Assembly: GCF_012027645.1 (NCBI RefSeq)
Contig: NZ_SNUU01000001.1
Coordinates: forward strand, 1-64,000
Length of the DNA: 64,000 nt
Reading direction: 5' to 3'
Origin: Thermococcus sp. 18S1
GTDB lineage: Archaea > Methanobacteriota_B > Thermococci > Thermococcales > Thermococcaceae
Made by a program: the position numbers and the translations under genes. The notes beneath the pieces are model-generated. The model was not told the DNA's origin and did not search any database. It saw only the letters and a program-made list of their open reading frames with translations. Positions 3,186-26,425 of this stretch are shown here, piece after piece (the first letter of the stretch is position 1; every line of letters starts with the position of its first letter).

Positions 3186-3237
3186 GTTTTTCTCCAAATT
3201 TGACTAGTTTAACATGCGGAGATATAGACCCGGGATG

Positions 3238-3254
3238 TGGGGGTGTTGGGGTTG
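3238..3254 (+). promoter_or_regulatory. Ribosome binding site and TTG start shared by two operons
   Basis: TGGGGGTGTTGGGGTTG contains a Shine-Dalgarno-like GGGGGTG, a 6-nt spacer and a TTG start. The same 17 bases occur at 15,838-15,854 before another kinase gene. The first residues read from this TTG are MKKVGILIILW, a good signal anchor, which supports it over the upstream GTG at 3,237. Confidence 0.6.
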
Positions 3255-9070: not shown

Positions 9071-10632
9071 AAAAAACAGCATTATTCTTTTTGGTTCTCT
9101 TTATAAATTGCTTGCTTACCGGCATATTAGTATATGGAGCCAGTATTGAGATAGTTACTTATCCAAAAAATGCCAGTGTCTACATTGACGGAGATTATAA
9201 AGGAACGACCCCCCTGAACGTAACGATCAGTCAAATAATGATAACAAAACGCGTAATAAATGTTACTATAAAAAAAGAAGGATATCTCCCATATACCACT
9301 TCCATGTTTATCCCATCAACTTTATATTTTATAGAACTCAATTTGACTCTTGCTCCTCTCAATGGGACTATCATCATAAACTCAGATCCAATTGGAGCCA
9401 TTGTTCAAATTAATGGAGAATATAAAGGGAAAACCCCCCTAAGTCTAACTCTCCCGCCTGGAGAATACAACATAACATTGTCCTCTGAAGGCTATTATCC
9501 TAACTCTGCTGTTATAGGACTTCCCCCCAATGAAACAAAAAATCTTTCTGTGAAACTCATTCAGAGAATGGGGCTCCTTATAATAAACTCGTCTCCAACT
9601 AACGCCTTTGTCATCATTAATGGAACTCAGCAAGAATGTAGAACCCCCTGTAACATAACACTTAAACCCGGAGTTTACACAATCAACGTCACCGATGGAA
9701 ACGCTCAAAATAACACCATGATAACTCTGAAGCCAGACGAAACCGTGAGCGTTACTCTGACTCTCCAGGAGGAGCCTAGCACCACCCTCATTCCAATACT
9801 CGGGATGCTTTTGATTGTAGGAGCTGGAGCAGGAGCATACATTTATCGCTCCAGTCGTCCCAATAAAAAAATGGAAGGAAAAATCAAAACCAGAAAAACG
9901 AACTCATCTATCGAAATGAATGCTGGAAAAGCCTTTGGCATAAGTCACATCGGTGCGAGGAACAATAACGAGGACAACCTGCTCATCCTCAAGCTCTTCG
10001 ATGCTTACCTTCTCGCGGTGGCAGATGGCCTCGGCGGCCACAACGCCGGTGAAGTCGCCTCCCAGATGGCAGTAGACACCCTCAAGGAAGTCTTTGGACA
10101 GGAATACCGGAAAGGAATGAATGATAAAGAGGTTAAGGGACTCCTAGGAAAAGCCCACGAGCTTGCTCACAAGAGGATAAAGGAGAACGCAGTCGGCGAG
10201 AGGGAGGGAATGGGAACCACTCTGGTCACCGCCTTCGTAAGGGACGGTAAGGCCATCATAGCCAACACCGGGGACAGCAGAGCGTATCTGATAAGGAACG
10301 GAAGAATCATCGCCAGGACGAAGGACCACTCACTTGTTCAGGAGATGCTCGATAAGGGTGAGATAACCCCCGCTGAGGCAATGAGACATCCGATGCGGAA
10401 CATCATCACAAAAGCTCTGGGTGTAGACTTCGGCGTTGACTTCTACGAATGGGAGATTGAGGGAGGAGACATTCTCCTGCTCAGCTCCGACGGGCTTCAT
10501 GACTACGTGGACGAAGAGAAAATAGTCGAAATTGTCTCGCGGGATGGGAGTACGGAGGAGATAATTAGATGGCTGATTGAAGAGGCCCTGCCCGTCACAA
10601 GGGACAACGTGACGGTGGTGGTGTGGAAATGA
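9067..10632 (+). CDS. Membrane-anchored PP2C-type Ser/Thr phosphatase with three PEGA repeats
   Basis: 521 residues, coupled by ATGA to the kinase before it and the kinase after it. A signal peptide precedes three PEGA repeats (about 25-95, 98-168, 172-235; for example GDYKGTTPLN and GEYKGKTPLS). A membrane span lies at about 240-262. The PP2C/PPM domain begins near 295. Metal-site motifs are present: ARNNNED, VADGLGGH, GTTLVTA, NTGDSRAYL, SSDGLHDYV and the closing DNVTVVV. The position between two receptor kinases suggests that it reverses their phosphorylation. An ectodomain fused to a PP2C implies the phosphatase is itself signal-gated, which is an inference. Confidence 0.92.
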   Translation: MKKTALFFLVLFINCLLTGILVYGASIEIVTYPKNASVYIDGDYKGTTPLNVTISQIMITKRVINVTIKKEGYLPYTTSMFIPSTLYFIELNLTLAPLNGTIIINSDPIGAIVQINGEYKGKTPLSLTLPPGEYNITLSSEGYYPNSAVIGLPPNETKNLSVKLIQRMGLLIINSSPTNAFVIINGTQQECRTPCNITLKPGVYTINVTDGNAQNNTMITLKPDETVSVTLTLQEEPSTTLIPILGMLLIVGAGAGAYIYRSSRPNKKMEGKIKTRKTNSSIEMNAGKAFGISHIGARNNNEDNLLILKLFDAYLLAVADGLGGHNAGEVASQMAVDTLKEVFGQEYRKGMNDKEVKGLLGKAHELAHKRIKENAVGEREGMGTTLVTAFVRDGKAIIANTGDSRAYLIRNGRIIARTKDHSLVQEMLDKGEITPAEAMRHPMRNIITKALGVDFGVDFYEWEIEGGDILLLSSDGLHDYVDEEKIVEIVSRDGSTEEIIRWLIEEALPVTRDNVTVVVWK

Positions 10633-13600
10633 AGAATAGAGTTTCGTACTTTACTGAGGGACATTTGAGAAAACTCATGACGCTTCTTTTTGTAAGTGTA
10701 TTAGTTCTCACAGTTAACCCCGATTTCGTTCGGGGCAATACTATGAATCCTACATGGACATACGTTACGGATAGGGCAGTACGCGAAATAGGAATGCCTG
10801 AGGATGGAAGTTTCGTAATAGTTGGAACCTCCACTTCAGAAGACGGGATGCTGTATAAATTCAATTCCAATGGCAATATGGAATGGAACTATCATTTGCC
10901 CAGCAGACTAGATAGTATGTCGATATCTCCAGACGGAAACTACATAGTAGCTGGAACAAAAGGTGGACTGCACATATTGGATGAAGAGGGGAATCTAATC
11001 AGGAAAGTAATTCCACCAAGTATCGCGGGCTCTCCAGAAAACACATTCCATGCGGTAACCATTTCCCCTCTTGGCAACTATGTTGCTACAGAATGCAATG
11101 GGGTCATAATACTTTATGATACGAACGGCAGTCTTCTCTGGGCATATTCGGACATCGTAGGATATGTCTCATCGGAGGGTATTGGATTTTCAAAGGACGA
11201 AAAATACCTGGCGGTAGGATTTTATGACCTGGGGGTTTATCTATTCAACATACACGGTGAGTTACTGTGGAAATTCACAAAATTACCCCAAAACATCCGT
11301 GTTGTGACATTTGTATCGGACAATTATATCGCAGTAGGGACCTCCACGTCTGATTACTCCTCTGGTAGCGTCTATCTCTTTGATATAAATGGAAATATAA
11401 TATGGAAATACACGACAGACGGTGGAGTCTCAAGTATCTCGACGAGCCAGGATGGTAACTACATTGTCGCCAGTACCGGAAAAAGCGGAGTAGGGATGAT
11501 ATACCTGTTCACAAAAGAGGGAAAGCTGATATGGGCCTATAATACAGGCAATCCTGTAAATAGGGTGTTGGTGAGCAACAACGGAAGTTATATTATCTCC
11601 GTAGGGGGCAGTGGTGTCTATAGGTTCAACCGGCAGGGTGATGTATTGTCCTCGTATCGTACTGGTAGCGCTCTTTTTAAGATTGCTGCTTCTAGGGATC
11701 TGAATGTCGCTGTGTTTGGAGGCCTTTACAAACTTTATTTCGTCAACTTCTCAAATGAATCTGCACCCGCAGTGTTGAAGATAGAGACCAGTCCATCAGG
11801 CTCTGAGGTGTACCTGAATGGAAAGTACTTGGGAACTGCCCCCCTAAATATCTCACTTCAGCCGGGGACATATACCCTAAAGATAACCAAAAATGGCTAC
11901 TCCGATTACGTTTCTTCTATAACCCTCGCCAGCGGAGAAACGAAGATAATCTCCGCAACATTAAACAGAAATACAGGCTATCTTAGCGTGAACTCATCCC
12001 CTTCTGGAGCAAAGGTGTATCTTGATGGAAGATACATTGGTACGACCCCACTGGAAAGTTACATGCTGCCACCTGGGGAATACACACTCAAGATAGTTGC
12101 GGACAACCATGAGACGTACAGCAGAAATGTCAGTATCGAAGAAGGCAAAAAGGTAACTATTCGCGCAAATCTTACCCCCCTTCAACCGGCTATCCTGCAA
12201 TCCAAAACGTCAGCAATCCAAATTACAACGGCTACTCATTCCACTACAAATATCACTTCCCCTATCAAGGAGACTTCAACGCCGGTAACTCCAACCGCAA
12301 CTACCCCATCATACACCATGTACGTTTTTGGACTCCTGGCTTTATTTGTAGTTGGGGCTCTTACTATCGCAAAATCAAAGGGTAAACCAGTCGTCCCCAT
12401 GACATCTTCTACTTCCACAAAGTCTCCGTTAAATAGTACCTCAATCGCTAAAGAGGAAACAAACTCCCAAAGAGCTCCAAGGCCAGATTCTTACACTTTA
12501 CAAAAGATTCCTCACTTCCCACAGGAACTGCTCAACAAGTACGAGCCTCTGGAACTCCTTGGGGAGGGAGGTTTTGCAAGGGTTTACAAAGTCAAGCGCA
12601 GGAATGACGGTAAAATTGTCGCCCTCAAGATACCAAGGATGGATGAGAAAACGAGCAAGAACTTCATAAAGGAAGTCTCTGCCTGGCTTCACCTCAACCA
12701 TCCCAATATAGTCCGGCTCCACGATACAGACATTCTCCCGGTCCCGTATCTTGAGATGGAGTTTGTTGAGGGTGTTGAGGTTGGGGGGAAACTTGTCAGA
12801 GACCTCGGAGTTTATCCAAAGCCGATGGACGAGAAAACTGCCCGGGAGCTCATTAAGGGGATAGCTAGGGGCCTAGCCCACGCGCATTCAAAGGGTATAT
12901 ACCATCGCGATCTGAAGCCTCAGAACGTTCTTCTCAAGGCAGACCTAACACCCAAAATAACCGACTGGGGACTATCAAAACTCGAAACGTCAAGTTCTAG
13001 CATAAGTGTCATTGGATATACCCCACTCTACGCCGCTCCAGAACACTTGATGCCGAGTAAATATGGACACACAGACCATAGAACAGATATCTGGCAGCTT
13101 GGAGTTACGTTCTATGAACTGCTAACTGGCAAACTGCCCTTCGAAGGATATACCCATGAGGAGATCTTTGGAAAAATAATAGATGAGGAGTACAGATTCA
13201 CACCACCTTCAAGAATTGACCCGAAGCTTGCTAAGTACGATGAAATCTTCGAGAAGCTCTTGGCAAAGAGAAAAGAGAAACGTTACGGAAGTATTGCCGA
13301 ATTCCTAGCTGATTTGAGGAGACTTGATGAGATAGAAGCAAAAAAGGAGAATCTCGAAAGAGAAATCCTGGAACTGAAAAAAACCCTAGTTAAGAGCGTT
13401 GAAGACCTCAAAAAGAGCAGGAACGTAGAGGAAACAGTAAAGCACAAACAACTCGTTGTTGAGACTCTCGGCAAGCTGGCTATCGCCTATGCAGAACTTA
13501 ACAAAAAGGCTGAGCTTCTCAATACGCTTAGTGACCTCAAGTTCTACACGATCCATAACCTCTCGGACCTCATGAACGCCATTGAGAGCGTCGAGATGAT

Positions 13601-13712
13601 GGTCCGGGAGAATCTCCCAGTTGGAGACGAGTTCATAGAGCGCCTCAAGGTTTTGGTTCACAGAATACGGAGGGAAAATGAAGCCGGAGGCACCGGTAAT
13701 AGAAGGGTGTGA
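10629..13712 (+). CDS. Transmembrane receptor Ser/Thr kinase with beta-propeller and two PEGA domains
   Basis: About 1,027 residues. ATG 10,629 overlaps the phosphatase stop (ATGA) and follows a GGTGGTGGTG ribosome site; GTG 10,623 is less likely. A signal segment is followed by a WD/PQQ-like propeller (about 35-375, repeated words such as ISPDGNYIVAG and YLFDINGNIIWKY). Two PEGA domains follow (about 380-446 and 449-517), then a Ser/Thr-rich stalk, a membrane span (VFGLLALFVVGALTI, about 561-578), the kinase from about 636 (GEGGFARVY, ALKI, HRDLKPQN, DWG, APEH) and the shared helical tail. It combines both sensor types found separately in its neighbours, which suggests domain shuffling. Confidence 0.92.
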   Translation: MKNRVSYFTEGHLRKLMTLLFVSVLVLTVNPDFVRGNTMNPTWTYVTDRAVREIGMPEDGSFVIVGTSTSEDGMLYKFNSNGNMEWNYHLPSRLDSMSISPDGNYIVAGTKGGLHILDEEGNLIRKVIPPSIAGSPENTFHAVTISPLGNYVATECNGVIILYDTNGSLLWAYSDIVGYVSSEGIGFSKDEKYLAVGFYDLGVYLFNIHGELLWKFTKLPQNIRVVTFVSDNYIAVGTSTSDYSSGSVYLFDINGNIIWKYTTDGGVSSISTSQDGNYIVASTGKSGVGMIYLFTKEGKLIWAYNTGNPVNRVLVSNNGSYIISVGGSGVYRFNRQGDVLSSYRTGSALFKIAASRDLNVAVFGGLYKLYFVNFSNESAPAVLKIETSPSGSEVYLNGKYLGTAPLNISLQPGTYTLKITKNGYSDYVSSITLASGETKIISATLNRNTGYLSVNSSPSGAKVYLDGRYIGTTPLESYMLPPGEYTLKIVADNHETYSRNVSIEEGKKVTIRANLTPLQPAILQSKTSAIQITTATHSTTNITSPIKETSTPVTPTATTPSYTMYVFGLLALFVVGALTIAKSKGKPVVPMTSSTSTKSPLNSTSIAKEETNSQRAPRPDSYTLQKIPHFPQELLNKYEPLELLGEGGFARVYKVKRRNDGKIVALKIPRMDEKTSKNFIKEVSAWLHLNHPNIVRLHDTDILPVPYLEMEFVEGVEVGGKLVRDLGVYPKPMDEKTARELIKGIARGLAHAHSKGIYHRDLKPQNVLLKADLTPKITDWGLSKLETSSSSISVIGYTPLYAAPEHLMPSKYGHTDHRTDIWQLGVTFYELLTGKLPFEGYTHEEIFGKIIDEEYRFTPPSRIDPKLAKYDEIFEKLLAKRKEKRYGSIAEFLADLRRLDEIEAKKENLEREILELKKTLVKSVEDLKKSRNVEETVKHKQLVVETLGKLAIAYAELNKKAELLNTLSDLKFYTIHNLSDLMNAIESVEMMVRENLPVGDEFIERLKVLVHRIRRENEAGGTGNRRV

Positions 13713-13725
13713 ACGGGTGGTAGCC

Positions 13726-15762
13726 ATGAAGTGGAGGACGGCTTTCATCATCGGGATCGTTTTGATATCGCTCCTGGGAACGGCTCATGCGAAGGCCTCG
13801 GCACCGCAGATAACACCGGAATGGACGTACAAAGTCAATACCGAGGTTCACGCTATCAAAGTGGGACCAAACGGCCAGTACGTGGTAGCTGGAGGCAAGA
13901 ACGGGAGGATATACTACTTCAGCTGGGATGGGAGGCCGATATGGGACTACCTGACCGGGGGCTTCATAGCGTCCCTTGACATAGCCAAGGATGGCAAGAA
14001 CATCGTGGCCGCGGTTGGCTACGACACGAACAGGGACGGTTCCCCAGAGTACGGGAAGATAATCTACCTGGACGACAGAAAGCACGTGCTCTGGACATAC
14101 ACTTCGCAGACCAAAGAATTCTTCTCCTCAGTGTCTGCGGGCCAGGACAGGATATACGTCGGGAGCGAGGGGAAGATAATACGCTTCAGCTACACCGGCT
14201 CGAGGATATCCACGAACCTCGTAGGCGTTGACCTGCCCGAAGTGGACACCTACGGAAACTACCTGGTGGTGTCGCACTCCCCCTGGTTCTATCGGAGGGA
14301 CGACAACGAGTACAGCAAACTTTTCCTATTCTCAGGGACGTTTCTGAAGTCCACCAGGGAATTCGACGATGCCGTCGTGGGCACGGCCATATCGGAGAAG
14401 TACTACGCCGCTGTGACCGGACTTCACCTTGATCCCAGCGGAAAGTGGGCCGGCTCAGAGGACTACTACGTTTATCTCTACCGGCTCTCTGGAGAGTTCG
14501 TGTGGAGGTACAAGCTGGACGCGCCGGCCTTCGACGTTGATATTGCCCCAACGGGCAGGGTAATCGCGGTGGGCGACACGGGAGGGAACGTCTACGTCTT
14601 CAACGAGAACGGCTACCTGCTCTGGAAGGAAAACCTTGGTTCTCCGGTCTACGCAGTGGCACTCTCTCAGGACGGGAATTACCTGGCGGTTGGAACCAAG
14701 GACGGCACGGTTGCGCTCTATCGGGTTCCGGGAGTGATCCAGATACTGACCGACCCCAGTGACGCTAGGGTGTACCTGATGGAGAACGGTGCGTACACCG
14801 AGATAGGGGAAACTCCTATGGCATTCACAGTCCTCCCAGGAACCTACACGGTAAAGGTCACGAGGGAGTACTACCACACGAAGGTCGTCGAGGTGAGCGT
14901 TTCTTCCGGTGATGTCCTCAAAGAGTACATCTCCCTGACGCTGGCCAACGGTACGATAAACGTCTACTCCAACGTCGATGGTGCTCAGGTTGTCATAGAT
15001 GGGATACCCGTGGGCAAGACGCCCCTTCTGAACTACACGATTCCCGCAGGGAACCACAACGTCACGGTGAGGGCCGACGGGTTCTGCGGGGAGTACCGGG
15101 AAGAGGTGTCAATAAACTCGCCCGCACCTGTGTCAGTGGCGGCCCGTCTGGAACCCTGTCCTGCGAAGCTCGAAATAAACGAACCCTCCGGGGCGGAGGT
15201 TTATGTGGACGGGACCTACTACGGAACCGCACCGACGTCTATCTCCATTCAGCCGGGAAGCTATGCAGTGGTGCTCAAAAAGGAGGGGAAGAAGGACTAC
15301 ACCACCACGGTCTCATTGCGTCCGGGTGAGACAAGGGAACTAACGCCGGACATGCAGATAGATCCGGTTTACTACGGCATCAGGGTGGCGGCAGGTATAG
15401 CCGTCCTGATAGTGTTGCTCATTCTAGTTATGACATACAGGAAGTACAACTTCAGAAAGAGCTACAAAGAGTTACTGGCCACGATAGACTCCGTGAGGAG
15501 GGAAAACATCCCCGAAGAAGCCAGTGAGATACTAAACGGATTGGAGGGAAAAAGAACAGCGATAGAAGAAGCCTACCGCAGGGGAGACAGAGGCAGTCTC
15601 TCAAGACTCAGGGAGGAGGTTGCTGCCGAGGTAGCACGTATCAAAGAACTGAAAGGCCAATACCGGAGTATGAAAGATAGGATCAGCAGGGACATTATGA
15701 GCCTGCTGAACCAGCCAGCAGCGGGAACGCCTTCAGAGGGGGGTGGGAGCAATGAGAAGTAA
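13726..15762 (+). CDS. Kinase-less transmembrane sensor: beta-propeller plus three PEGA domains
   Basis: About 678 residues. ATG 13,726 follows GGTGGT and gives a clean signal peptide (MKWRTAFIIGIVLISLLG); ATG 13,678 would put a 16-residue charged extension before it. The ectodomain is a propeller (about 30-335) followed by three PEGA-like domains (about 338-405, 406-480, 481-545; best copy PSGAEVYVDGTYYG). After one membrane span (about 550-571) there are only about 100 cytoplasmic residues, helical and charged. Their ending (LKGQYRSMKDRISRDIMSLL) resembles the tail of the PEGA protein at 21,264 and part of the soluble protein at 20,592. It is the last gene of the five-gene unit and is probably a receptor or adaptor acting on partner kinases. 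Function is inferred only. Confidence 0.85.
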   Translation: MKWRTAFIIGIVLISLLGTAHAKASAPQITPEWTYKVNTEVHAIKVGPNGQYVVAGGKNGRIYYFSWDGRPIWDYLTGGFIASLDIAKDGKNIVAAVGYDTNRDGSPEYGKIIYLDDRKHVLWTYTSQTKEFFSSVSAGQDRIYVGSEGKIIRFSYTGSRISTNLVGVDLPEVDTYGNYLVVSHSPWFYRRDDNEYSKLFLFSGTFLKSTREFDDAVVGTAISEKYYAAVTGLHLDPSGKWAGSEDYYVYLYRLSGEFVWRYKLDAPAFDVDIAPTGRVIAVGDTGGNVYVFNENGYLLWKENLGSPVYAVALSQDGNYLAVGTKDGTVALYRVPGVIQILTDPSDARVYLMENGAYTEIGETPMAFTVLPGTYTVKVTREYYHTKVVEVSVSSGDVLKEYISLTLANGTINVYSNVDGAQVVIDGIPVGKTPLLNYTIPAGNHNVTVRADGFCGEYREEVSINSPAPVSVAARLEPCPAKLEINEPSGAEVYVDGTYYGTAPTSISIQPGSYAVVLKKEGKKDYTTTVSLRPGETRELTPDMQIDPVYYGIRVAAGIAVLIVLLILVMTYRKYNFRKSYKELLATIDSVRRENIPEEASEILNGLEGKRTAIEEAYRRGDRGSLSRLREEVAAEVARIKELKGQYRSMKDRISRDIMSLLNQPAAGTPSEGGGSNEK

Positions 15763-15799: not shown

Positions 15800-15837
15800 T
15801 ACTTTGCCCTAATAAAAGCGGGTGTTATGCCCCGCGT

Positions 15838-15854
15838 TGGGGGTGTTGGGGTTG
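15838..15854 (+). promoter_or_regulatory. Second copy of the shared 17-nt ribosome site and TTG start
   Basis: The 17 bases are identical to 3,238-3,254: GGGGGTG, spacer TTGGGG, then TTG. Flanking bases differ on both sides. This sets the start of the soluble kinase at 15,852 rather than at GTG 15,822. Confidence 0.6.
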
Positions 15855-17819
15855 GGCAGGATAGCTGACCTGAGGGAGATCGAGTCGTATCTCCCGAAAA
15901 TTTCAAATTACATGACGCTTGGATTACCCGGCTCGAACATCGAGCAGGCTAAGGATTATCTTCAGAACGCGTTAAACGCGCTGAACGCCGATGACACTGG
16001 TACCGCGCTTGAGATGGTCAAAAAAGCCCTGATAGCAGCCCTTCCAGATAGGGATTTCCTTCTAAGCAACGCCCTCCGTCTGAGGCATGACGGAGAGAAG
16101 CTTCTAAAGGCGAGGAACTTTGAGGAGGCAATATCAAAGTTCGCAGAGTCGCTGGAGAAATATCACCAGGCCCTTACTGTTCTGGAGGTCGAAGATGGTA
16201 CCCAAGAGGAGCTGATCCAGAAGCTCAGGAACACCATAGAGACCACCGAGAACCTGAGGAAGATAGCCAACTTCAGGAGGATATACCAGAAGATAAAGGA
16301 CGCTCAAACCGAGCAGGAACTCTGGGATGCGATTAGGGAGCTTGAAGTTGTTGAGGTTCCGATGGAGGACGACAGGTTCGACGCCCTCATAGTCGCCCAC
16401 AGGAAGATAATAATGCTCCAGCTCCAGGCGGTAGCGGACATGATGATAGAGGCCGCAGAGATGTACAGGAAGGAGGACTGGTTCTCCGCCAAGAAGAGCC
16501 TCGAGAGCGCGAAGAAAGTCCTGGAGAACCTCCTGGAAATGGCAAAGAAGCACGACCTGGTAGAGGAAGTCGCAATGATAAACGAGCTGATAAAAGCCTG
16601 TGACAGTAACCTCTACGGAATCACCGAACTCCTCTACACAGGAGAGGTCCCCAAGGGCTGGCGCCTCCAGATCCCGGACAAGGACAGCTTCGTCCTCCAG
16701 GAGGAAGTCGTCGAGGAGGAGACATTCGACCTGTCGGTGAACTTCGAGACAAGACTGGAGCAGATAAAGGAAAGGTACAGGATAATAAGAACCATCGGAG
16801 AAGGCGCGTTCTCCTACGTTTACGAGGCCAAGAATCCACAGGGACACAAGGTGGCACTCAAGGTGCTCAAATACCTGGACAAGGAATCTACCTCCTCGTT
16901 CATGCGAGAGTTCGCGGCGGCCCAAAAGCTCGACCACGAGAACATCGTTAAGGTTCACCGCGCCGATCCGAGGCTCGGCTTCCTTGAGATGGAGCTGGCC
17001 AGCAGTAACCTGGAGGAAGTCAAGAAACCGATAAATCCCTCGGTGGCGGGGAGGATAATATTTGAGATAGGCCGTGCCCTCCACCACGCCCACTCCCAGA
17101 AGATATACCACAGGGACATAAAGCCGAGCAACATACTCATATTCGGAAGCTTGGAGCGGGTTAAACTCGGAGACTGGGGCCTTGCAAGGCTCGCATCTAG
17201 AGCCACAAGGAAATCCTCTCTTGTCAGGCATAAGACTATACTCTACTCCTCTCCAGAGCAGATAAAGGATCCGGAACATATCGACCACAAGAGCGATATA
17301 TTCCAGCTCGGAATTGTCTTCTACGAGATACTGACCGGCAGGCACCCCTTCACGGCCGAGTACGAGGGAACAATCATCAACAACATACTCAACAAAACCC
17401 CAGAACCACCATCGTATCTTAACCCGGAGGCGAGGGTCTTTGATGAGATAGTGATGAAGATGCTCGAAAAGGACCCCGAGAAGCGCTACCAGACGGTGAG
17501 GGAGCTGCAGAACGACATCAAGGAGGTTCTGATACGCATGGGAGTCCACGTCAGAGACAGTGTCAGCTCGCGGGAGAGGGCGAAGATCCTCGCTGAGAAC
17601 GCCTACCTGCGCATCAAGGCGATTGTGGACGGTTTTGCCCAGGAAGTTTCAGCTGAGCTCACAAAACTTGCAGCGGATCTCGATGCCCTCTACCACGAAA
17701 CCGGCTACCCAGAACTCAAGGATCTCCATACGCAGATATCGCTCATGGCCTCCGAGAACGCCCGCCCAACTGAAGACACGTTTAGAAGGGTGGAGACTGT
17801 ATTGAAGAAATGGATGTGA
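15852..17819 (+). CDS. Soluble Ser/Thr protein kinase with N-terminal TPR-like region
   Basis: About 655 residues with no signal peptide or membrane span, so cytoplasmic. Residues about 1-290 are helical with TPR-like repeats (GEKLLKARNFEEAISKFAES; EMYRKEDWFSAKKSLESAKK). The kinase runs from about 310, with GEGAFSYVY, ALKVL, HRDIKPSN, DWG and SPEQ. The tail (ALYHETGYPELKDL, then ARPTEDTFRRVETVL) matches the helical module that ends the receptor kinases. It is the most divergent kinase of the set and the only one clearly without a sensor. It begins the operon that also holds a PP2C, two accessory proteins, an ESCRT-III-like protein and a Vps4-like ATPase. A downstream or hub kinase is plausible. 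Confidence 0.9.
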   Translation: MGRIADLREIESYLPKISNYMTLGLPGSNIEQAKDYLQNALNALNADDTGTALEMVKKALIAALPDRDFLLSNALRLRHDGEKLLKARNFEEAISKFAESLEKYHQALTVLEVEDGTQEELIQKLRNTIETTENLRKIANFRRIYQKIKDAQTEQELWDAIRELEVVEVPMEDDRFDALIVAHRKIIMLQLQAVADMMIEAAEMYRKEDWFSAKKSLESAKKVLENLLEMAKKHDLVEEVAMINELIKACDSNLYGITELLYTGEVPKGWRLQIPDKDSFVLQEEVVEEETFDLSVNFETRLEQIKERYRIIRTIGEGAFSYVYEAKNPQGHKVALKVLKYLDKESTSSFMREFAAAQKLDHENIVKVHRADPRLGFLEMELASSNLEEVKKPINPSVAGRIIFEIGRALHHAHSQKIYHRDIKPSNILIFGSLERVKLGDWGLARLASRATRKSSLVRHKTILYSSPEQIKDPEHIDHKSDIFQLGIVFYEILTGRHPFTAEYEGTIINNILNKTPEPPSYLNPEARVFDEIVMKMLEKDPEKRYQTVRELQNDIKEVLIRMGVHVRDSVSSRERAKILAENAYLRIKAIVDGFAQEVSAELTKLAADLDALYHETGYPELKDLHTQISLMASENARPTEDTFRRVETVLKKWM

Positions 17820-17828: not shown

Positions 17829-20579
17829 ATGGTTAACCTGAGGCGTGTTGTTTCAATATTCCTCCTCATCATTATGGTGCTCAGCGTGCCCGTAACTGCC
17901 GCGGACACCGGACAGACGGCCCAGGATTCAACCCAGCAAGCTTCAAGCGATGTGGAAGGACTTAACAAGGACATAGACCTTGCCAGCCAGATTCTGAAAA
18001 CCCTGAACGAGAACAAGAAACCCCTGAACGTGCCAGTAAAGGAGATTCAAAAGCTGAACCAGAGCATAAACACTGCAAGGGATCAGCTGAACAGCGGGGA
18101 TTTAGAGAGCGCCAACGGAACCCTGATAAACGGCTTCTGGAACCCCCTCGCGGAGCTTATAAACAACATCACGAAGGACCTCAATAAAGAGTACACCCAG
18201 CTCTCAAAGGACGCTAAAGCGTGCAGCGATAAAAATGTTGAAAAAGGGATCCAAAGCGACCTCAATGAGGTAAAATCGCTCCTCGATCAGATAAAAGAAC
18301 TGATAAGCGAAGGCAACAATGATCATTCAAAATTCTCAGACGCCCTGTCCAAGCTTCTGGAGGTTAGGGGGAAGCTGGACAAGATTAAGAGCGATATTGA
18401 AAAGTGCTCTACCGCTTCAAACGAGGTCAAGGAGAAAATTGACTCCGCCGAAAGCGCGCTCCAGGCGATCAAGGAAAACAGGAAGTTCCTCGACGTGGAT
18501 GATAAGACCATAACCGACCTCGAGAGCAAGATCAAAACCGCCAGAGACCAGCTGGAGGCCGGGAACGTTTTCGATGCAAACGCCACTATGGACGAAGTCA
18601 TGAGTCGCATCAGAGGAATAGTCACGACCAAGCTGGACGCCGCAGGAATGGAGTACACTGAGTACGAAAGATATTTCACAAAGTACTGCGCCAAATCCAG
18701 CAACCAGGGCGCCCTCTGGGACGGACTTGAGGACGTGAAACAAAAGCTTGGAATAGCAAGTCGCAGTCTGTCCCAGAACAGGATAGCCGAGGCGATAGCG
18801 TACACGAAGTCCGCCTTCGACGCCCTGGAAAACGTCAAAAAACCCCTCGCGGAGTGCCTCGTTGGAAAAGCTGACGAAGAAATAAAGCAACTGAAGGGAA
18901 CCTACGGAGCGCTTCCCGAGGATTATTACGACGCGATAATACCGCCCCTCGAATCCAAGCTTAAGAATGCCAAGACGGCGCTCTCCGGTGGCGATTACGA
19001 TAAGGCTATCACATTGACGGTTGAGGTGATCAACAACGGCGATTTCAAAGCCATCAGGGAGAGAATCCTGGAGCAGATGAGGAAAAAGCTTGGTGTGAAT
19101 GAGACCAGTGTGGACGAGAAGAAGCTCAAAGAACTGGAAGATAGGTACGAGCAGGTTCATAGGAGGTTCCAGGAGACCAAAAAGAAGAAACCAACCATCG
19201 TCATCATAAGTGCGGACGACAAGCTAAGAGAAGCTGATGAAAAACTCAAGCAGGTTAATGCAAGCTTAATAGTTTTGAACGCACGCCTTAAAGCTCAAAA
19301 AGCGTACGTTAAAGCTCAGAACGCCCAGGATGTGGATGGCCTCATAGCGGCCGTGAACGAATTTGACTCGGCCCTATCTGCTTCCGGTGGGGCCGAGAGT
19401 TACATCGTTGCGAGCGTGGCCCAGGTGGAGAGCCTGCTGAACGACGCCAGCAAGTCGATTGATGACGCGGAGAGCAGTTACACCTGGAATACGGTCCTCC
19501 TGGCAGTGATTGCACTGCTCCTCCTGGCTGGTCTGGGCTACGGGGGATATATCGGATACACCAAGTACCAGGACAAGAAGCGCGTGGATCGGGCGAGGGA
19601 AGCGGTTGAAATCATGGAAGATATCATAGAACGCCTCCAGAAGGAACTCGAATCGCTCAACCTGCTGACGGATGAAGGCGTAACAAGGAAGCTGAGTGAG
19701 ATGAAGGGCCTCGTGAGTGAGGCCCGGGCGGCGTTTGAGAGGGGTGATTACAGAAGGCCCCTCGCCCTGAAGGAAAAGTTCCTGTCAGAATACGAGGTGC
19801 TCAACCTCAGGATAACACCTTACAAGCAGACCCTCAACGTGGACATAACAAAGCACGTGGCGGCCAAGAGCTACATAGGACGCAGGCAGAACAACGAGGA
19901 CGCCTACATCGTCGAGAAGGTAGGTGGCAACATACTCCTAGCGGTCGCCGATGGTATGGGTGGGCATCTCGCAGGCGAGGTGGCGAGCAAAAAAGCAACC
20001 GAGATACTCAAGGAGACCCTGGAGCGCAACAAGTTCGGTGATCCCGAGGAGGTGTTTAGGGAGGCTATAAAGAGGGCCAACGAGGTAATCTACCAGATGG
20101 GACACGACCCGGCACATCCTGAGCGGTACAACATGGGAACCACCCTGACTGCGGCTATAGTCCGGGGCAACACAGCGACGGTTGCCAACATAGGTGACAG
20201 CAGAACCTACCTGATACGGCCCGACGGAAGCATAAAGAGGATTACCAAGGATCATTCTCTCGTCCAGGAGCTCATAGACAAGGGCGAGATAACGCCTGAG
20301 GAGGCCAGAAAACACCCGCAAAAGAACGTCATAACTAAGGCCCTGGGCATTTCCCAGACTATAACCATCGGAAGGAACGACATAAAGAAAGTGGGCCTTC
20401 AGAAGGGCGATTACCTGCTCCTGTGCTCCGACGGACTCAGCGATGCCCTTCCTGATAGCGAGATAGCTAGAACCGTCCTCGCCGCCCCGTCTCTCGAAGA
20501 AGCAGTGAAGATACTGGTGGAAAAGGCCTACGGTTATGGAAGTGACGACAACATAACGGTGGTTCTCTACCGCCACTGA
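17829..20579 (+). CDS. Membrane-anchored PP2C-type Ser/Thr phosphatase with coiled-coil ectodomain
   Basis: 916 residues. A signal peptide (RVVSIFLLIIMVLSVPV) precedes about 500 residues that are almost wholly helical and charged, with repeated patterns such as KTARDQLEAGNVFDANAT and KNAKTALSGGDYDKAI. A membrane span lies at about 553-577 (LLAVIALLLLAGLGYGGYI). After a helical juxtamembrane part (LVSEARAAFERGDYRRPL), the PP2C domain starts near 676, with GRRQNNEDAY, VADGMGGH, GTTLTAA, NIGDSRTYL, CSDGLSDAL and DDNITVVLY. It lies 9 bp after the soluble kinase, whose product is a natural counterpart. This is the second PP2C of the cluster; its ectodomain is unlike the PEGA one at 9,067. Confidence 0.92.
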   Translation: MVNLRRVVSIFLLIIMVLSVPVTAADTGQTAQDSTQQASSDVEGLNKDIDLASQILKTLNENKKPLNVPVKEIQKLNQSINTARDQLNSGDLESANGTLINGFWNPLAELINNITKDLNKEYTQLSKDAKACSDKNVEKGIQSDLNEVKSLLDQIKELISEGNNDHSKFSDALSKLLEVRGKLDKIKSDIEKCSTASNEVKEKIDSAESALQAIKENRKFLDVDDKTITDLESKIKTARDQLEAGNVFDANATMDEVMSRIRGIVTTKLDAAGMEYTEYERYFTKYCAKSSNQGALWDGLEDVKQKLGIASRSLSQNRIAEAIAYTKSAFDALENVKKPLAECLVGKADEEIKQLKGTYGALPEDYYDAIIPPLESKLKNAKTALSGGDYDKAITLTVEVINNGDFKAIRERILEQMRKKLGVNETSVDEKKLKELEDRYEQVHRRFQETKKKKPTIVIISADDKLREADEKLKQVNASLIVLNARLKAQKAYVKAQNAQDVDGLIAAVNEFDSALSASGGAESYIVASVAQVESLLNDASKSIDDAESSYTWNTVLLAVIALLLLAGLGYGGYIGYTKYQDKKRVDRAREAVEIMEDIIERLQKELESLNLLTDEGVTRKLSEMKGLVSEARAAFERGDYRRPLALKEKFLSEYEVLNLRITPYKQTLNVDITKHVAAKSYIGRRQNNEDAYIVEKVGGNILLAVADGMGGHLAGEVASKKATEILKETLERNKFGDPEEVFREAIKRANEVIYQMGHDPAHPERYNMGTTLTAAIVRGNTATVANIGDSRTYLIRPDGSIKRITKDHSLVQELIDKGEITPEEARKHPQKNVITKALGISQTITIGRNDIKKVGLQKGDYLLLCSDGLSDALPDSEIARTVLAAPSLEEAVKILVEKAYGYGSDDNITVVLYRH

Positions 20580-20591
20580 GGGGTGCCCGTC

Positions 20592-21260
20592 ATGGGCATT
20601 TTTTCCTCCATTTTACCATCGAAGGAAGAGAAAAAGCTTCGAGAGTTGAAGGGTCGTCTTGATTCTCTGGGAGACAGGATTCCTGAGGAAGGTAAGGAAA
20701 GCCTCAGCGGAGTGCTGGCGCTTATTCAACACGTCGAGGGCCGCATGAGAAGGGGCAAGAAGGAAAACACAATGGATGCACTTGAAAACATTGAGACCGA
20801 AATCTCACGGCTGGAGATTCTCGTGGGGGAGTACCTCGCACTGAAGAATACTATCGTAAGCTCGATCGTGGATATCTTGGGAACTCCCAGACTCGATGAA
20901 TCAGCCATCTTTGCCACCAGTTCCCCAGCAGGAAGTTCTCCAACGAACAACAGGACAGAGGAAAGGATCCACGTTATGAGATACATTGACCACGCCCGCA
21001 AGAATCATGTTGCGGTGCTACTCGATGATGAATTTCAGCCCGTGGCGATAGATAGTGTGGTTTCTATGGTAGTAAGGCTCAACACCCAGCCGGTTACAGG
21101 GAGGGTTCTGATAGTGCCAACCGTCGTGACGAATGTCCTTGTTGAGCTGGCCAGGAGGAGAAATATCGGAACAGTGATCGGAAGAGAGGTAGATGACAGG
21201 ACTTTGGGAACAGATGGAGTTCGTGTCCTCACATTTGATACGTACTCCGGTGGCCGTTAA
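20592..21260 (+). CDS. Soluble accessory protein: shared helical module plus alpha/beta domain
   Basis: 222 residues, no membrane segment. ATG 20,592 is preferred over GTG 20,583 because GAGGGGTG lies just upstream. Residues about 1-100 are helical (IPEEGKESLSGVLALIQHVE, then LKNTIVSSIVDILG) and resemble the cytoplasmic tails of the sensors at 13,726 and 21,264. Residues about 120-222 form an alpha/beta domain (HVAVLLDDEFQPVAID, VLIVPTVVTNVLVELA, NIGTVIGREVDD). This recalls TOPRIM/DnaG-like folds only weakly. Operon position between a phosphatase and a PEGA sensor suggests a role in this pathway. I do not recognise the family. Confidence 0.75.
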   Translation: MGIFSSILPSKEEKKLRELKGRLDSLGDRIPEEGKESLSGVLALIQHVEGRMRRGKKENTMDALENIETEISRLEILVGEYLALKNTIVSSIVDILGTPRLDESAIFATSSPAGSSPTNNRTEERIHVMRYIDHARKNHVAVLLDDEFQPVAIDSVVSMVVRLNTQPVTGRVLIVPTVVTNVLVELARRRNIGTVIGREVDDRTLGTDGVRVLTFDTYSGGR

Positions 21261-21263
21261 ACT

Positions 21264-23156
21264 ATGGCAACGGTGAAGGCGATGAAGAAGGGTATGGCGG
21301 TACTGTTAATCGTGCTCTCCTCCCTGTTCCTTCCATGGGTATCCCCAGAAACAACGATGGAAGAGTGGTATCATGTCGGAGACGCATTGATAATAAGAAA
21401 CACGTACACGGGGGAGGATCTCTACAGGATTACAATTTATGACGTGGATCTCATCAACGAGAAGGTCATATTCAAGTTCCAGGCCCTACCCCAGGGAAGT
21501 CCCGTAATGTACACGGTTTACCTGAAAGAACGGCTGTATGGGGACACCTCCCATGGATTTGACGTGGAGCCTCTCGACGTGTTTTTGGGGATCTCGGGAG
21601 ACCTTTCAGTTAGGATTCGTTTTTACCTAGCGGATAATTACATCGTAGTGAAAGATCGGGCCACCCTGAGGATATCGTCAGACCCCAGCGACGCGGCGGT
21701 TTACATAGACGGCGAATATCGGGGAAAGACCCCCCTCACCGTTGAACTCCCCTCCGGAACCCACGAAATTGTCGTTGCTAAGGAGGGGTACAGGCCATAC
21801 AACACAACAGTCGTACTCGAGACGGGGGAATACAAGACCATATACGCAAGTCTGGAAAGGATAGTGGGGAAACTCAAGGTTGAATCAACACCATCAAACG
21901 CCAAAGTTTACGTAGACGGAGATTACATCGGAAGGACTCCCATAACCTACGAACTTCCCCCTGGAACATACCGGGTAAAACTCGCCCTGGATGGATATTT
22001 TGAGTACTCAACAACGGTCACTGTAAAGGCCAGTGACACTAAGGAAATCTTCGTCAACCTCAAACCAAAACCTGGCAAGCTCAGAATAACATCAGAACCC
22101 TCCGGCGCGGAGGTATACGTAAATGGAACCTACATCGGCAAAACACCCATAGATGGGTACAGTCTAAACCCTGGAAAGTACTGGATTGAGGTAAAACTGC
22201 CCAAATATCAGGTATATGAAAAGAGAATAACAGTGGTTCCAGGTCAGGAATACCGGATACATGCCCAGCTTACCCCATCGTGGGGAGTATTAAAGGTGAC
22301 ATCAACACCCTCCGGAGCAGAGGTATACATCAACGACGAAAACGCTGGGAAAACACCGCTTGAGCTCCAATTAGACCCAGGAACATACACCGTCAGGGTG
22401 ACCCTTGATGGATACGAAGAGTACGAGGACAGAATTGAGGTTAGGGCAGGTGAAACGACCGGGATTTCCGCGAGCCTTACACCCGTAGGGTACGTAACGG
22501 TGACGTCTGAGCCGAGTGGGGCAAGGGTGTATCTCGATGGCACGTACATCGGCAACACGCCCATAATGGAGTACAAAGTACAGGCGGGAACCTACGAAGT
22601 AACGTTAGAGGACGATGGATACCAGGCCTACAAAACGTCCATCAAAATTGAAGCAGGAGAGACAAAGGAGATAAACGTGGAACTAACACCCCTGGAAACG
22701 GTAAAAGAAACCAAAGAAGCTCCAGAAACGGAGGGAATGGAAGAAGCCACCGCCAGCCCAAATTACAAAAACGTTACGGAAGGCACACCGAGTAGCATTT
22801 ACATAATCGGTGCTGCAGTTATGGTTCTAGGCCTGATGGTGGGAATAAAGCTCCACGGAAAGCCAAACGAAACAAAGCTCCTGGAGAGAGAATTCAACTC
22901 AATCAGTCCCTCCATGCTCCCCGAAGAAGCCGTTGGAACATACCGGGAGGCAGAGGCCGCTTTACACACATTGAAAAAGACCAAAGGCAGTGAAAGAGAG
23001 AAGGCAATTAAAGAGCTACGGATAAAGCTCAGAGAACTGAAAGGGGCAATGCAAGACTACCAGGACCTCAAAAGAAACCTGGAGGAAGACATTAGAAAGA
23101 TGCTTTCACAGGGAATTTCCTCATCTGGAGAAACTAATGAAGCGTCCGATGCCTAA
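21264..23156 (+). CDS. Kinase-less transmembrane sensor with five tandem PEGA domains
   Basis: 630 residues; ATG 21,264 or 21,282 are both possible starts. A signal segment (MAVLLIVLSSLFLPWV) is followed by a beta domain of about 100 residues. Five PEGA repeats then span about residues 133-480 at a period near 70, each with an SxPSxAxVYxDGxYxGxTP core. A membrane span (IIGAAVMVLGLMVGI, about 513-527) precedes a helical cytoplasmic tail of about 100 residues (SMLPEEAVGTYREAEAAL, DYQDLKRNLEEDIRKMLSQG). This tail matches the one at 13,726 and the N-terminal part of the 20,592 protein. It probably acts as a receptor or adaptor. It directly precedes the ESCRT-III-like gene. Confidence 0.88.
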   Translation: MATVKAMKKGMAVLLIVLSSLFLPWVSPETTMEEWYHVGDALIIRNTYTGEDLYRITIYDVDLINEKVIFKFQALPQGSPVMYTVYLKERLYGDTSHGFDVEPLDVFLGISGDLSVRIRFYLADNYIVVKDRATLRISSDPSDAAVYIDGEYRGKTPLTVELPSGTHEIVVAKEGYRPYNTTVVLETGEYKTIYASLERIVGKLKVESTPSNAKVYVDGDYIGRTPITYELPPGTYRVKLALDGYFEYSTTVTVKASDTKEIFVNLKPKPGKLRITSEPSGAEVYVNGTYIGKTPIDGYSLNPGKYWIEVKLPKYQVYEKRITVVPGQEYRIHAQLTPSWGVLKVTSTPSGAEVYINDENAGKTPLELQLDPGTYTVRVTLDGYEEYEDRIEVRAGETTGISASLTPVGYVTVTSEPSGARVYLDGTYIGNTPIMEYKVQAGTYEVTLEDDGYQAYKTSIKIEAGETKEINVELTPLETVKETKEAPETEGMEEATASPNYKNVTEGTPSSIYIIGAAVMVLGLMVGIKLHGKPNETKLLEREFNSISPSMLPEEAVGTYREAEAALHTLKKTKGSEREKAIKELRIKLRELKGAMQDYQDLKRNLEEDIRKMLSQGISSSGETNEASDA

Positions 23157-23205: not shown

Positions 23206-23772
23206 ATGGTGAAGTTTTGGAAGTCCAAAGAGGAAAAGGAAATCGAGCGCAAGGTTCGTATGCGGAAGGCCAAAATGGCCCTGAAGCAGTACATAAACAA
23301 CCTCGAAAACCTGAAACGTAAAATTTTCCTCCAGGGTAAGGAGGCGGCAAAGCTTGGCGATGAAGCACTGCTGAAGAGGAGCGCCATGAAGTATCTCGCC
23401 CTTGAGGAGCGGATAAAGCAGGCCAAGAGGCTACTGCTCCTCATGGAGGAAGCCGAGATTCAGAGAGAACTGGTGAAGGTCTCCGCAAACTTCATTCAGT
23501 TTAGCAAGGATATAGTAGAGAGCATAGCAGAGGGTCCTGGAGCGGAGGACGTAGCCAAGATGCAGGTTGAGTTTGAAAAGGCTATGACAAAAGTGGAGGG
23601 CCTTGACGAAGCCCTCAGCACGATGCTCGACCTTACAAGTGAGAGTATCCTAACCGGTGAGTTCGACGCAGAGAGCCTCGAGGAGACCGCATCTTTGTTT
23701 GAGGCATCCGCATCCTCCGACCTAGAACCCAAAACCAGACTGAAACAGATAGAGGACATGATGAGGGGTTGA
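23206..23772 (+). CDS. ESCRT-III/Snf7-like membrane-remodelling protein (predicted)
   Basis: 188 residues, all helical, with a basic N-terminal half and an acidic C-terminal half, the charge layout of ESCRT-III (CHMP/Snf7/CdvB) proteins. Helix alpha1 holds KVRMRKAKMALKQYINNLEN. The hairpin partner has LGDEALLKRSAMKYLALEER followed by IKQAKRLLLL, very like the CHMP alpha2 pattern. A helix with EFEKAMTKVEGLDEALSTML then matches alpha4. The last residues (TRLKQIEDMMRG) resemble a MIM1 motif, the tail that MIT domains bind. ATG 23,206 follows GGAGG. It is one base from the gene for an MIT-like AAA ATPase, as ESCRT-III and Vps4 pairing predicts. PspA/Vipp1-like proteins are the main alternative. 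The call rests on pattern and context, not a profile search. Confidence 0.75.
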   Translation: MVKFWKSKEEKEIERKVRMRKAKMALKQYINNLENLKRKIFLQGKEAAKLGDEALLKRSAMKYLALEERIKQAKRLLLLMEEAEIQRELVKVSANFIQFSKDIVESIAEGPGAEDVAKMQVEFEKAMTKVEGLDEALSTMLDLTSESILTGEFDAESLEETASLFEASASSDLEPKTRLKQIEDMMRG

Positions 23773-23773
23773 G

Positions 23774-24916
23774 ATGAAGTCCCTCTATCTTTCTCTTTTT
23801 GAGGAATGCAGAAAGGAGTATGAGACGGAGCTGGCGAGGGGCAACATGGAAGGAGCCAGAGAGTACGCCCTCAAGTGCGCGGAGATTCTGAAGGCACTAG
23901 CAGATAAGATGCCTGACAGGAGAGAATTCTACCTGGAGAAGGCAAGACGCTGGGAAGAGGCCGCGGAGGAACTCAAAACTCCATCAGCCCATGGAACATG
24001 GGGCGGTATCAAAGGGGGAGCATCCATCGATGAATACATAGCGCAGGTGGAGGGGCTGATAGCCAGTTCTACCGTCACGTGGAAGGACATAGGGGGGCTG
24101 GAGGAAGTCAAGAGATTGCTGGCACGGAACGTTGCCATAGCCTTCGCAAAGAGACCCGAGGCCATAAAGCCATGGAAAGGAATTCTCCTCTTCGGCCCAC
24201 CCGGGACAGGCAAGACCCTTCTCGCTTCCGCGGCGGCGGGGAGTTTAAAGGCCACTTTCTTCAACGTCAAAGCTTCGGACGTACTCAGCAAGTACTATGG
24301 TGAATCCTCAAAGCTGATAACGGCTTTGTACAAACTGGCGAGGGAGAAGGCTCCCAGCATAGTTTTCATCGATGAGGTTGATGCACTCAGTTTGAAAAGA
24401 GAGAGCGTTCACGAGACAACGCGGAGAACCCTGGCGACCCTCCTGTCGGAGATAGATGGTTTTAAGGGAGGAGAGGAGGGATTCGTCCTTACACTCGCAT
24501 CCACCAACACCCCCTGGGACCTCGACGAGGCGCTGCTCTCAAGGTTTCCGCTGAGGATTTACGTGCCACTACCCGATAGGGAGGCCATCAAAGAGATCGT
24601 GAGGATACACACCAGGGGCCTGGATATAAGCAGGCTCGACCTCGATGTGATAGCAGAGGAGAGCGTCAGACGGCTGTACTCCGGGAGGGAGGTAGCGAAC
24701 CTGTGCAACCTGGCTGTTCAGAGTATGCTGGTTGAGGAAAACCCGGAACTGGAGGACCTAGAAGCCGTTTCTGAGATACTTGACGGTGAAATCGAACTGA
24801 GAACCCGCCCTCTTGAAATGAGAGATTTCGAGGAGGCATTTAAGATCGTAAAGAGCCCCCTAACTGGGAAAAAGCTCGAACGCTATCAAAATTGGGCGGA
24901 GGAGTTTGGGGGTTAA
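23774..24916 (+). CDS. MIT-like plus AAA ATPase, Vps4/katanin type (copy 2)
   Basis: 380 residues, one base after the ESCRT-III-like gene. The N-terminal three-helix region (LFEECRKEYETELARGN, KCAEILKALADKM, FYLEKARRWEEAAEEL) looks like an MIT domain. The AAA core has WKDIGGLEEVKRLL, Walker A GPPGTGKT, Walker B IVFIDEVDAL, a sensor region LASTNTPWDL and SRFPLR. The end reads RYQNWAEEFGG, a Vps4/katanin-style C-terminal helix. It closely parallels copy 1 at 1,989, including the phrase RGLDISRLDLD, so the two are a local duplication flanking the kinase block. Predicted to remodel ESCRT-III-like filaments. Confidence 0.87.
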   Translation: MKSLYLSLFEECRKEYETELARGNMEGAREYALKCAEILKALADKMPDRREFYLEKARRWEEAAEELKTPSAHGTWGGIKGGASIDEYIAQVEGLIASSTVTWKDIGGLEEVKRLLARNVAIAFAKRPEAIKPWKGILLFGPPGTGKTLLASAAAGSLKATFFNVKASDVLSKYYGESSKLITALYKLAREKAPSIVFIDEVDALSLKRESVHETTRRTLATLLSEIDGFKGGEEGFVLTLASTNTPWDLDEALLSRFPLRIYVPLPDREAIKEIVRIHTRGLDISRLDLDVIAEESVRRLYSGREVANLCNLAVQSMLVEENPELEDLEAVSEILDGEIELRTRPLEMRDFEEAFKIVKSPLTGKKLERYQNWAEEFGG

Positions 24917-24965: not shown

Positions 24966-25010
24966 AACTTCAATTTTTCCAAGTTTGAGAACTAACTGGA
25001 GGCGATGGTA

Positions 25011-25973
25011 ATGGGGGCCTTTGCCGGAGCAGCTCTTATCGTAATTGGAGTGTTCCTTTTGATAATGCTCCTGCTGAGCGTGAAGGTTATCCGTCCGTAC
25101 CAGAAGGGCCTTGTCGAGAGGCTCGGAAAGTTCAACAGAATCCTGGAGCCTGGAATACACTTCATAATACCCTTCATGGAGCGCGTCAAGGTCGTGGACA
25201 TGCGCGAGCACGTCGTCGATGTGCCGCCGCAGGAGGTCATCTGTAAGGACAACGTCGTCGTCACCGTCGATGCCATCGTTTACTACCAGATACTTGACCC
25301 CGTCAAGGTCGTTTACAACGTCAGCAACTTCCTGATGGCCATCATCAAGCTCGCCCAGACCAACCTCCGTGCCATCATCGGTGAGATGGAGCTCGACGAG
25401 ACGCTCTCCGGAAGGGACATAATCAACGCCAAGCTGCGCGAGGAGCTTGACAAGATAACCGACCGCTGGGGTGTCAAGATAACCCGCGTTGAGATACAGC
25501 GCATAGACCCGCCGCGGGACATACAGGAGGCAATGGCCAAGCAGATGACAGCCGAGCGTGAGAAGAGGGCCATGATACTCCTCGCGGAGGGTGAGAGGGA
25601 GAGCAAGATAAAGAAAGCCGAGGGTGAAAAGCAGGCGGCCATACTCCGGGCAGAGGGTGAGAAGCAGAGGCAGATACTCGTCGCCGAGGGTCAGGCCGAG
25701 GCAATACGGAAGGTTCTCGAGGCGCTCTCGATGGCCGACGAGAAGTACCTCGCCCTCCAGTACATCGAGAAGCTTCCCGAGCTCGGAAGGCAGGGCAACC
25801 TGATCGTGCCCTACGACACCGAGTCCCTAATCGGACTGCTGAGGATACTCCAGAAGGTGAGGGACATCCCGATGCCTGAGACGCCCAAACCTTCCAGCGG
25901 CGATGTTGGAGAGGAAGTGACCCCCTCCGAGTCGGGTGAAGGCAGCCCAGAGTTGAATCCGGAAAAGGCTTAA
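25011..25973 (+). CDS. Stomatin/prohibitin-family (SPFH) membrane protein
   Basis: About 320 residues. An N-terminal hydrophobic hairpin (IVIGVFLLIMLLLSV) anchors an SPFH domain (VIRPYQKGLVERLGKF, PGIHFIIPF, RTxxGEMELDETLSGRD-like region). A long coiled coil follows with repeats of AEGE/AEGEKQ (about 180-240), then an acidic tail. GGAGG sits 8 nt before ATG 25,011, better spaced than for ATG 25,005. Archaeal stomatins oligomerise on membranes and are partnered by NfeD-type proteins; an NfeD-like gene follows. They are linked to membrane protein quality control. The adjacency to the ESCRT-like cluster may be chance. Confidence 0.93.
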   Translation: MGAFAGAALIVIGVFLLIMLLLSVKVIRPYQKGLVERLGKFNRILEPGIHFIIPFMERVKVVDMREHVVDVPPQEVICKDNVVVTVDAIVYYQILDPVKVVYNVSNFLMAIIKLAQTNLRAIIGEMELDETLSGRDIINAKLREELDKITDRWGVKITRVEIQRIDPPRDIQEAMAKQMTAEREKRAMILLAEGERESKIKKAEGEKQAAILRAEGEKQRQILVAEGQAEAIRKVLEALSMADEKYLALQYIEKLPELGRQGNLIVPYDTESLIGLLRILQKVRDIPMPETPKPSSGDVGEEVTPSESGEGSPELNPEKA

Positions 25974-26005
25974 AGGCCGTTTCTTAATTTTTGATGGTGG
26001 TGGGC

Positions 26006-26425
26006 ATGGAAGCGCTCCCAATTTCCCTTCTTATCCTCGGCCTCCTCGTGATAGCTCTGGACATGATGGTTACCGCGTTCATAACCCCGATCGGAATAGC
26101 GATGGTCGTCATGGGGCTCCTGATGGGGTTCGGGGTGAACTTCACCGAGAGCTTCGTCGCGGCCCTCATAGCGGCGGTGATTTCATACATAATCGTTGGC
26201 CGCTATGTAAAAAAGGACGTCCAGGACGCCGGAAAGGGCAAGTACACCTTCGAGCTGAAGGGCAAGCGCGGAAAGGTGGTTGAAATAGGAAAGGACCACT
26301 ACATCGTCGAGCTTGAGGGCGACAGGTGGATAGCGCTGGCCGAGGGGGACGAGAAGCCCGGAATCGGCGACACCGTTGAGGTCGTCAATGTTGACGGCGT
26401 CAAGCTCATGGTCAGGAAGGTCTGA
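26006..26425 (+). CDS. Short NfeD-like membrane protein with OB-fold domain
   Basis: About 139 residues. Two to three hydrophobic helices ([46 protein letters not shown]) precede a small beta domain ([31 protein letters not shown]), the NfeD C-terminal OB fold. ATG 26,006 follows GGTGGTGG; upstream in-frame starts at 25,991 and 25,994 lack a ribosome site. No serine-protease domain is present, so this is the short form. It is 32 bp after the stomatin gene and its stop overlaps the convergent deaminase gene by 14 bp. Confidence 0.88.

Follow-up and report, generated by a model that had tools for sequence, protein, structure and literature searches.

A divergent ESCRT-III-like gene directly followed by a second Vps4-type ATPase in a kinase-rich ESCRT cluster of the Thermococcales

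According to several reviews, ESCRT-III is absent from Thermococcales, and how they make their vesicles is not known (PMC10117752, PMC6524685). The "Main" clade euryarchaeal ESCRT system has been described from this same order (Makarova et al. 2024, mBio, PMC10936438) and, as outlined there, joins Vps4 and ESCRT-III in a single locus with arCOG08177- and arCOG09748-like genes and with membrane Ser/Thr kinases and phosphatases; other Vps4 genes of the Thermococcales are termed solo in that outline. The cluster described here has the same content (Vps4, ESCRT-III, arCOG08177- and arCOG09748-type genes, Ser/Thr kinases and phosphatases), likewise ordered across the contig join, with the two arCOG assignments resting on architecture and gene order rather than on the arCOG database, and on this composition we assign it to the "Main" system. 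It contains three ESCRT-III and two Vps4 genes. The additional pair, E3c and Vps4b, is an optional one, and lies at the end of a large ESCRT cluster rich in kinases and phosphatases.

The analysed stretch (the window) covers the opening 64,000 nucleotides of a contig of 1,989,976 bases, and a further part of the ESCRT cluster lies at the far end of this contig. The first bases of the contig recur as its last, within a beta-propeller kinase gene (window 1-1922); the record seems to be a circle left untrimmed, in which this gene has been cut at the join. Before the join, in the coordinates of locus L034, are an arCOG08177-like gene (9973-10497), a gene (10466-12346) for an arCOG09748-like coiled-coil protein whose C-terminal part is HTH-like, and two tandem ESCRT-III genes, E3a and E3b (12365-13593), with kinases beside them. 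The 3′ part of the beta-propeller Ser/Thr kinase gene, which crosses the join, occupies window positions 915-1922 on the plus strand, as do all cluster genes placed in the window below (Pkinase 4.8e-44; frame open from window base 3), and is followed by the first Vps4 paralogue, Vps4a (1989-3185; Vps4_C 33.9 bits), whose start at 1989 was set by orthologues beginning with MPVDLSG.

Between Vps4a and E3c we find a membrane Ser/Thr kinase with TPR-like repeats (3237-7037; Pkinase 1.8e-46), a PEGA-transmembrane-Ser/Thr kinase (7034-9070; PEGA, Pkinase), a PEGA-transmembrane-PP2C phosphatase (9067-10632; PEGA, PP2C), a beta-propeller-PEGA-Ser/Thr kinase (10623-13712; Pkinase 2.3e-50, PEGA), and a beta-propeller-PEGA membrane protein of uncertain start codon and with no kinase (13678-15762; PEGA 3e-38, WD40/PQQ). 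They are followed by a cytoplasmic Ser/Thr kinase (15822-17819; Pkinase 4.2e-44), which has a weak MIT-like stretch (E=0.016, residues 81-146) and may therefore bind ESCRT-III tails as well, a membrane coiled-coil PP2C phosphatase (17829-20579; PP2C 6.1e-21), a coiled-coil protein (20583-21260) with a weak likeness, over its last ~100 residues, to the end of archaeal DnaG primase (NCBIfam NF003108, E=0.0011, residues 121-217), and a five-PEGA membrane protein (21264-23156; PEGA 2.2e-105), the gene for which stops 49 bases ahead of E3c. Since the gaps between genes from Vps4a to E3c amount to only -10 to +59 bases, a long operon from Vps4a through the cluster is likely; a scan for bacterial promoters and terminators, with models of the wrong type for archaea, stayed at chance level. 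In relatives, a compact form of the locus (L046-L053) reads arCOG08177 - arCOG09748 - E3a - E3b - kinase - Vps4a - PP2C - E3c, and in larger loci Vps4b stands behind E3c and there are additional kinases of the PEGA and beta-propeller kinds. Directly after the ESCRT cluster, the window contains stomatin (SPFH) and NfeD-like genes (25005-26425), with a TATA-like TTTATAAG ahead of them at ~24958. The same neighbour is seen at L037, L038, L039, L043 and L044, and SPFH at L167; in the published outline, SPFH genes are tied to another archaeal ESCRT type (PMC10936438).

E3c (23206-23772, 188 aa) has an ATG start with a GGAGG ribosome site upstream, and the ATG of Vps4b (23774-24916, 380 aa) lies one base past the E3c TGA, with its own ribosome site within the 3′ end of E3c. 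Both frames are open where the sequence-only reading had placed a 188-residue protein and an ATPase one base later, and both are real genes. For E3c this follows from its orthologues, which are 74-99% identical and present in 30 of the 94 family genomes, together with silent changes far commoner than protein changes (pN 0.02-0.13 vs pS 0.70-0.81). In same-genome comparisons it is better conserved than its partner, with identities of 96%, 94% and 93% for E3c vs 85%, 81% and 74% for Vps4b.

The top and only sensible Pfam match of E3c is Snf7 (E=0.0017, 18.4 bits), which extends over residues 15-164 and nearly the whole profile but stays under the curated cut-off of 27.3 bits. In calibration, of 14 control genomes, the Snf7 model at E<=0.01 matched only that of Sulfolobus; CdvB-type proteins of TACK genomes scored from 42 down to ~18 bits, a range that includes E3c; and 83 of the 101 genomes in the phylum of the thaumarchaeal relative had Snf7 matches, many of them under the curated cut-off. 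Within the host genome, matches under 0.01 are limited to E3c and E3b. When 11 divergent E3c orthologues were scanned singly, ten had a Snf7 match with E no higher than 1 (1.1e-5 at best), and any other family was matched by four of them at most. Profile alignment with hhalign yielded nothing when E3c was represented by 29 close homologues alone (Neff 1.3), and gave a signal only once Archaeoglobales-type, thaumarchaeal and halobacteriote relatives had joined the alignment, still of Neff below 2: E3c then aligned with E3a/E3b over the full length and in register at 2.6e-4, vs 0.01 or worse for coiled-coil controls. E3a/E3b align with CdvB at 1e-4. The direct comparison of E3c with CdvB is not significant (0.2), and the link runs via E3a/E3b and Pfam. 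Neither phmmer with E3c nor hmmsearch with the E3c alignment found an ESCRT-III match among PDB sequences, as E3c is too divergent.

The AF2 model of E3c, built from 29 sequences (pLDDT 80.8), consists of helices 8-50, 53-107, 113-150, 155-170 and 175-187; alpha1 and alpha2 pair as a long hairpin, and alpha3, alpha4 and a C-terminal helix come after it, as in the ESCRT-III layout. The segment that had been singled out as alpha2-like falls inside the predicted hairpin. In a Foldseek search of the PDB, the first match was the closed form of S. islandicus CdvB (E 0.018, prob 1.00), and CdvB or CdvB2 made up nine of the thirteen best matches (prob 0.97-1.00). No match reached 1e-3 and BAR-domain proteins came close behind, so we regard the modelled likeness to CdvB/CdvB2 as good but not overwhelming. 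The CHMP-like basic and acidic halves noticed from the sequence are also real: residues 1-91 carry a net charge of +11 and residues 92-188 one of -14, and the contrast is kept in divergent orthologues. From profiles and model together, we regard E3c as a divergent ESCRT-III protein of the Snf7/CdvB superfamily.

Its partner, Vps4b, carries a single AAA domain (Pfam AAA, 1.1e-37) with all motifs intact: Walker A at 141, pore loop KYYGES at 173, Walker B at 196 and the Arg finger SRF at 256. The katanin/Vps4-like end proposed for the ATPase corresponds to a Vps4_C oligomerisation domain (PF09336; residues 341-379, 24794-24910), which scores 25.9 bits, above the cut-off of 21.3. Its N-terminus is weak by Pfam MIT and by sequence profile alone, and is modelled by AF2 as a three-helix bundle (helices 2-22, 25-45 and 47-68; pLDDT 83.7; MIT domain, residues 2-68, 23777-23977). 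The top Foldseek matches of this bundle are Sulfolobus Vps4 MIT structures, 2v6y and 2w2u (TM 0.64-0.77), of which 2v6y is the MIT domain alone (TM 0.73/0.77, 1.7 A) and 2w2u is the domain with its ESCRT-III peptide; hhalign aligns the Vps4b N-terminus with the MIT domain of CdvC at 4e-5, with helical controls at 0.18 or worse. The three-helix, MIT-like start is thereby supported, and with it, from the models of both proteins, the ESCRT-III and Vps4 assignments. Against the NCBIfam equivalog for CdvC (NF041006), Vps4b falls short, with 175.9 bits for a cut-off of 650, and by its domains we file it as a Vps4-type ATPase and not as CdvC itself.

The MIM1 motif has the consensus [DE]xx[LIVM]xxRLxx[LIVM]. 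The last helix of E3c (residues 175-187, 23728-23766) contains RLKQIEDMM, a candidate MIT-binding motif in which L179, I182, E183 and M186 are kept throughout Thermococcaceae. The MIM1-like tail claimed for the window's E3c stands in part: RLxxI is present, and Pro replaces Leu at R-3, because of which "MIM1-like" is the fitting term rather than "MIM1". The tails of the Archaeoglobales-type orthologues L063 and L106, DARIEERLREVE and DERIERRLREVE, fit the consensus exactly, as do 0.6-0.7% of shuffled tails.

Comparison with CdvB/CdvC of TACK archaea shows a shared ESCRT-III fold, MIT domain, Vps4_C and gene adjacency, and several differences: no CdvA was noticed at the E3c locus, E3c has no fused winged helix, its tail resembles MIM1 and not the proline-rich MIM2, and the Vps4 of this system forms a separate, well-supported branch from CdvC. 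The pair does more than mimic CdvB/CdvC, as had been proposed: it is an extra one, added to the end of a complete locus of published type with Vps4a, E3a and E3b. Eukaryotic and Asgard ESCRT-III/Vps4 share the domain logic, with the MIM1-like tail found in Archaeoglobales-type E3c orthologues; unlike them, the present system shows no link to ubiquitin, and has phosphorylation genes instead. PspA/Vipp1 share the superfamily hairpin, as presented in PMC8281802, but PspA (PF04012) is absent from the Pfam matches of E3c up to E=10, and hhalign against it is not significant (0.08).

Vps4a is present in 38 of the 94 family genomes (~40%), in a kinase-rich ESCRT locus in those whose locus was opened, and every genome with E3c also holds Vps4a (30/30; Fisher 1.5e-17, a value that ignores relatedness). 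The Vps4a matches at L121, L123 and L125 (genomes G030, G067 and G042) include one in-frame TAA, probably due to upstream extension of the match and not to a broken gene. Vps4b is found at 12 loci in 11 genomes, directly behind E3c at all 12. E3c is not essential to the ESCRT system, since the loci of two genomes, L166 and L167, look intact without it. A third type of Vps4, 52-56% identical to Vps4a, occurs alone in most g3 genomes and several g1 genomes, and no ESCRT-III was found at those of its loci that were opened; it is the published solo Vps4. In our tree, Vps4b and the solo Vps4 group together (100/100), separate from Vps4a. Identity of Vps4b with the solo Vps4 was considered and rejected, as the solo genes lie elsewhere and lack ESCRT-III neighbours. 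One genome (L164; G024:C1:990000-1003000), which we take to be that of T. kodakarensis KOD1, has solo Vps4 only, with neither E3c nor Vps4a, and knock-outs there would say nothing on this system.

Outside the family, MAGs that go by the names Archaeoglobus, Geoglobus and Nitrosothermus contain E3c, as do two more genomes from the phylum of the Geoglobus relative; MAG contigs may be misbinned, and the Archaeoglobus contig (79%) looks like Thermococcales. At a distant halobacteriote locus, L105, an arCOG08177 gene, an arCOG09748-like gene, E3c and an AAA ATPase with an MIT-like start lie in a row, and E3c is the only recognised ESCRT-III, with no E3a or E3b. The Nitrosothermus MAG (L107) has an E3c relative of ~60% identity, without ESCRT neighbours and without a MIM-like tail, as well as CdvB- and CdvC-type genes; this relative reflects either transfer or misbinning.

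What we observe is the family membership and the folds of the two proteins, the motifs of the ATPase, the linkage of the genes and their co-occurrence; from these we infer assembly, tail-MIT contact, phospho-control and site of action. E3c would probably be an ESCRT-III subunit, with either E3c itself or its co-polymer with E3a/E3b as the target of Vps4b, in regulated remodelling of the envelope rather than in division. The membrane-anchored kinases and phosphatases, with their outward PEGA and beta-propeller domains, would sense envelope or cargo, and phosphorylation would act as the switch for ESCRT-III assembly at the inner membrane face, with the arCOG09748 and arCOG08177 proteins as possible nucleators or adaptors. 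E3c may then join or cap the filament; its C-terminal helix would be held by the Vps4b MIT domain or, where a species has no Vps4b, by that of Vps4a, and the ATPase would thread subunits out, leading to constriction or recycling. Such a machine could serve to bud or mend the envelope in a regulated way, and not for routine division. A bolder version is possible, though we offer it tentatively: E3c and Vps4b may constitute a self-contained, transferable sub-module with a MIM1-MIT code of its own, apart from E3a/E3b/Vps4a, and the solo Vps4 may descend from its ATPase after loss or change of partner. If true, the cells would have two kinase-controlled ESCRT machines, and division would be the task of FtsZ.

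Clearly less likely than the main reading is one in which E3a/E3b make the filament and E3c, though derived from ESCRT-III, serves as a regulator or Vps4 adaptor that recruits or tunes Vps4a/Vps4b, similar to Ist1 or Vps60 in eukaryotes. It would agree with E3c being an extra, optional gene atop the E3a-E3b pair, with its high conservation (88% mean column identity in the family alignment) and with the occurrence of Vps4b only beside it. At L105, however, E3c is the sole recognised ESCRT-III beside the ATPase, and should for this reason form the filament there.

It is unlikely that the pair drives constitutive budding of extracellular vesicles, as ESCRT does in Sulfolobales, even though Thermococcales bud vesicles abundantly and Sulfolobus vesicles are ESCRT-made (PMC10117752). 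E3c and Vps4a are each confined to a minority of the family genomes. The presumed KOD1 genome has solo Vps4 only and its species makes vesicles. Vesicles are still made by species that appear to be without the whole cluster, which speaks against a general vesicle role, and disruption of the Vps4 homologues of T. kodakarensis is reported to have been without effect (PMC10117752).

We think it very improbable that the likeness of E3c to ESCRT-III is convergent and the protein a generic BAR- or PspA-like helical hairpin or a plain coiled coil: the Foldseek values, the BAR domains among the matches, the weak sequence scores and the low Neff would allow it, but E3c has no PspA match in Pfam, the coiled-coil controls fall behind its alignment with E3a/E3b, and its gene is coupled to a Vps4 with MIT and Vps4_C domains. 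Least probable of all is participation of the pair in division next to FtsZ, as seen for CdvB and CdvC in TACK archaea, since it is missing from most relatives, many of them complete genomes, and the host genome has three tubulin/FtsZ-family genes, which argue against division as the pair's main role and make the different role foreseen in the sequence-only reading a reasonable one.

This type of system is already on record, as outlined in PMC10936438, and to it are added here a third, divergent ESCRT-III subfamily, a strict link of E3c to the second Vps4, and the kinship of Vps4b with solo Vps4. A Vps4 that is found only beside one ESCRT-III partner offers a clean system for the evolution of MIT-tail pairing. 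If our assignment of the species is right, the silent Vps4 knock-outs of T. kodakarensis would be explained by a genome without the cluster. For the family as a whole, the presence of Vps4a in ~40% of genomes and of E3c in a third runs counter to the statement in reviews that ESCRT-III is absent.
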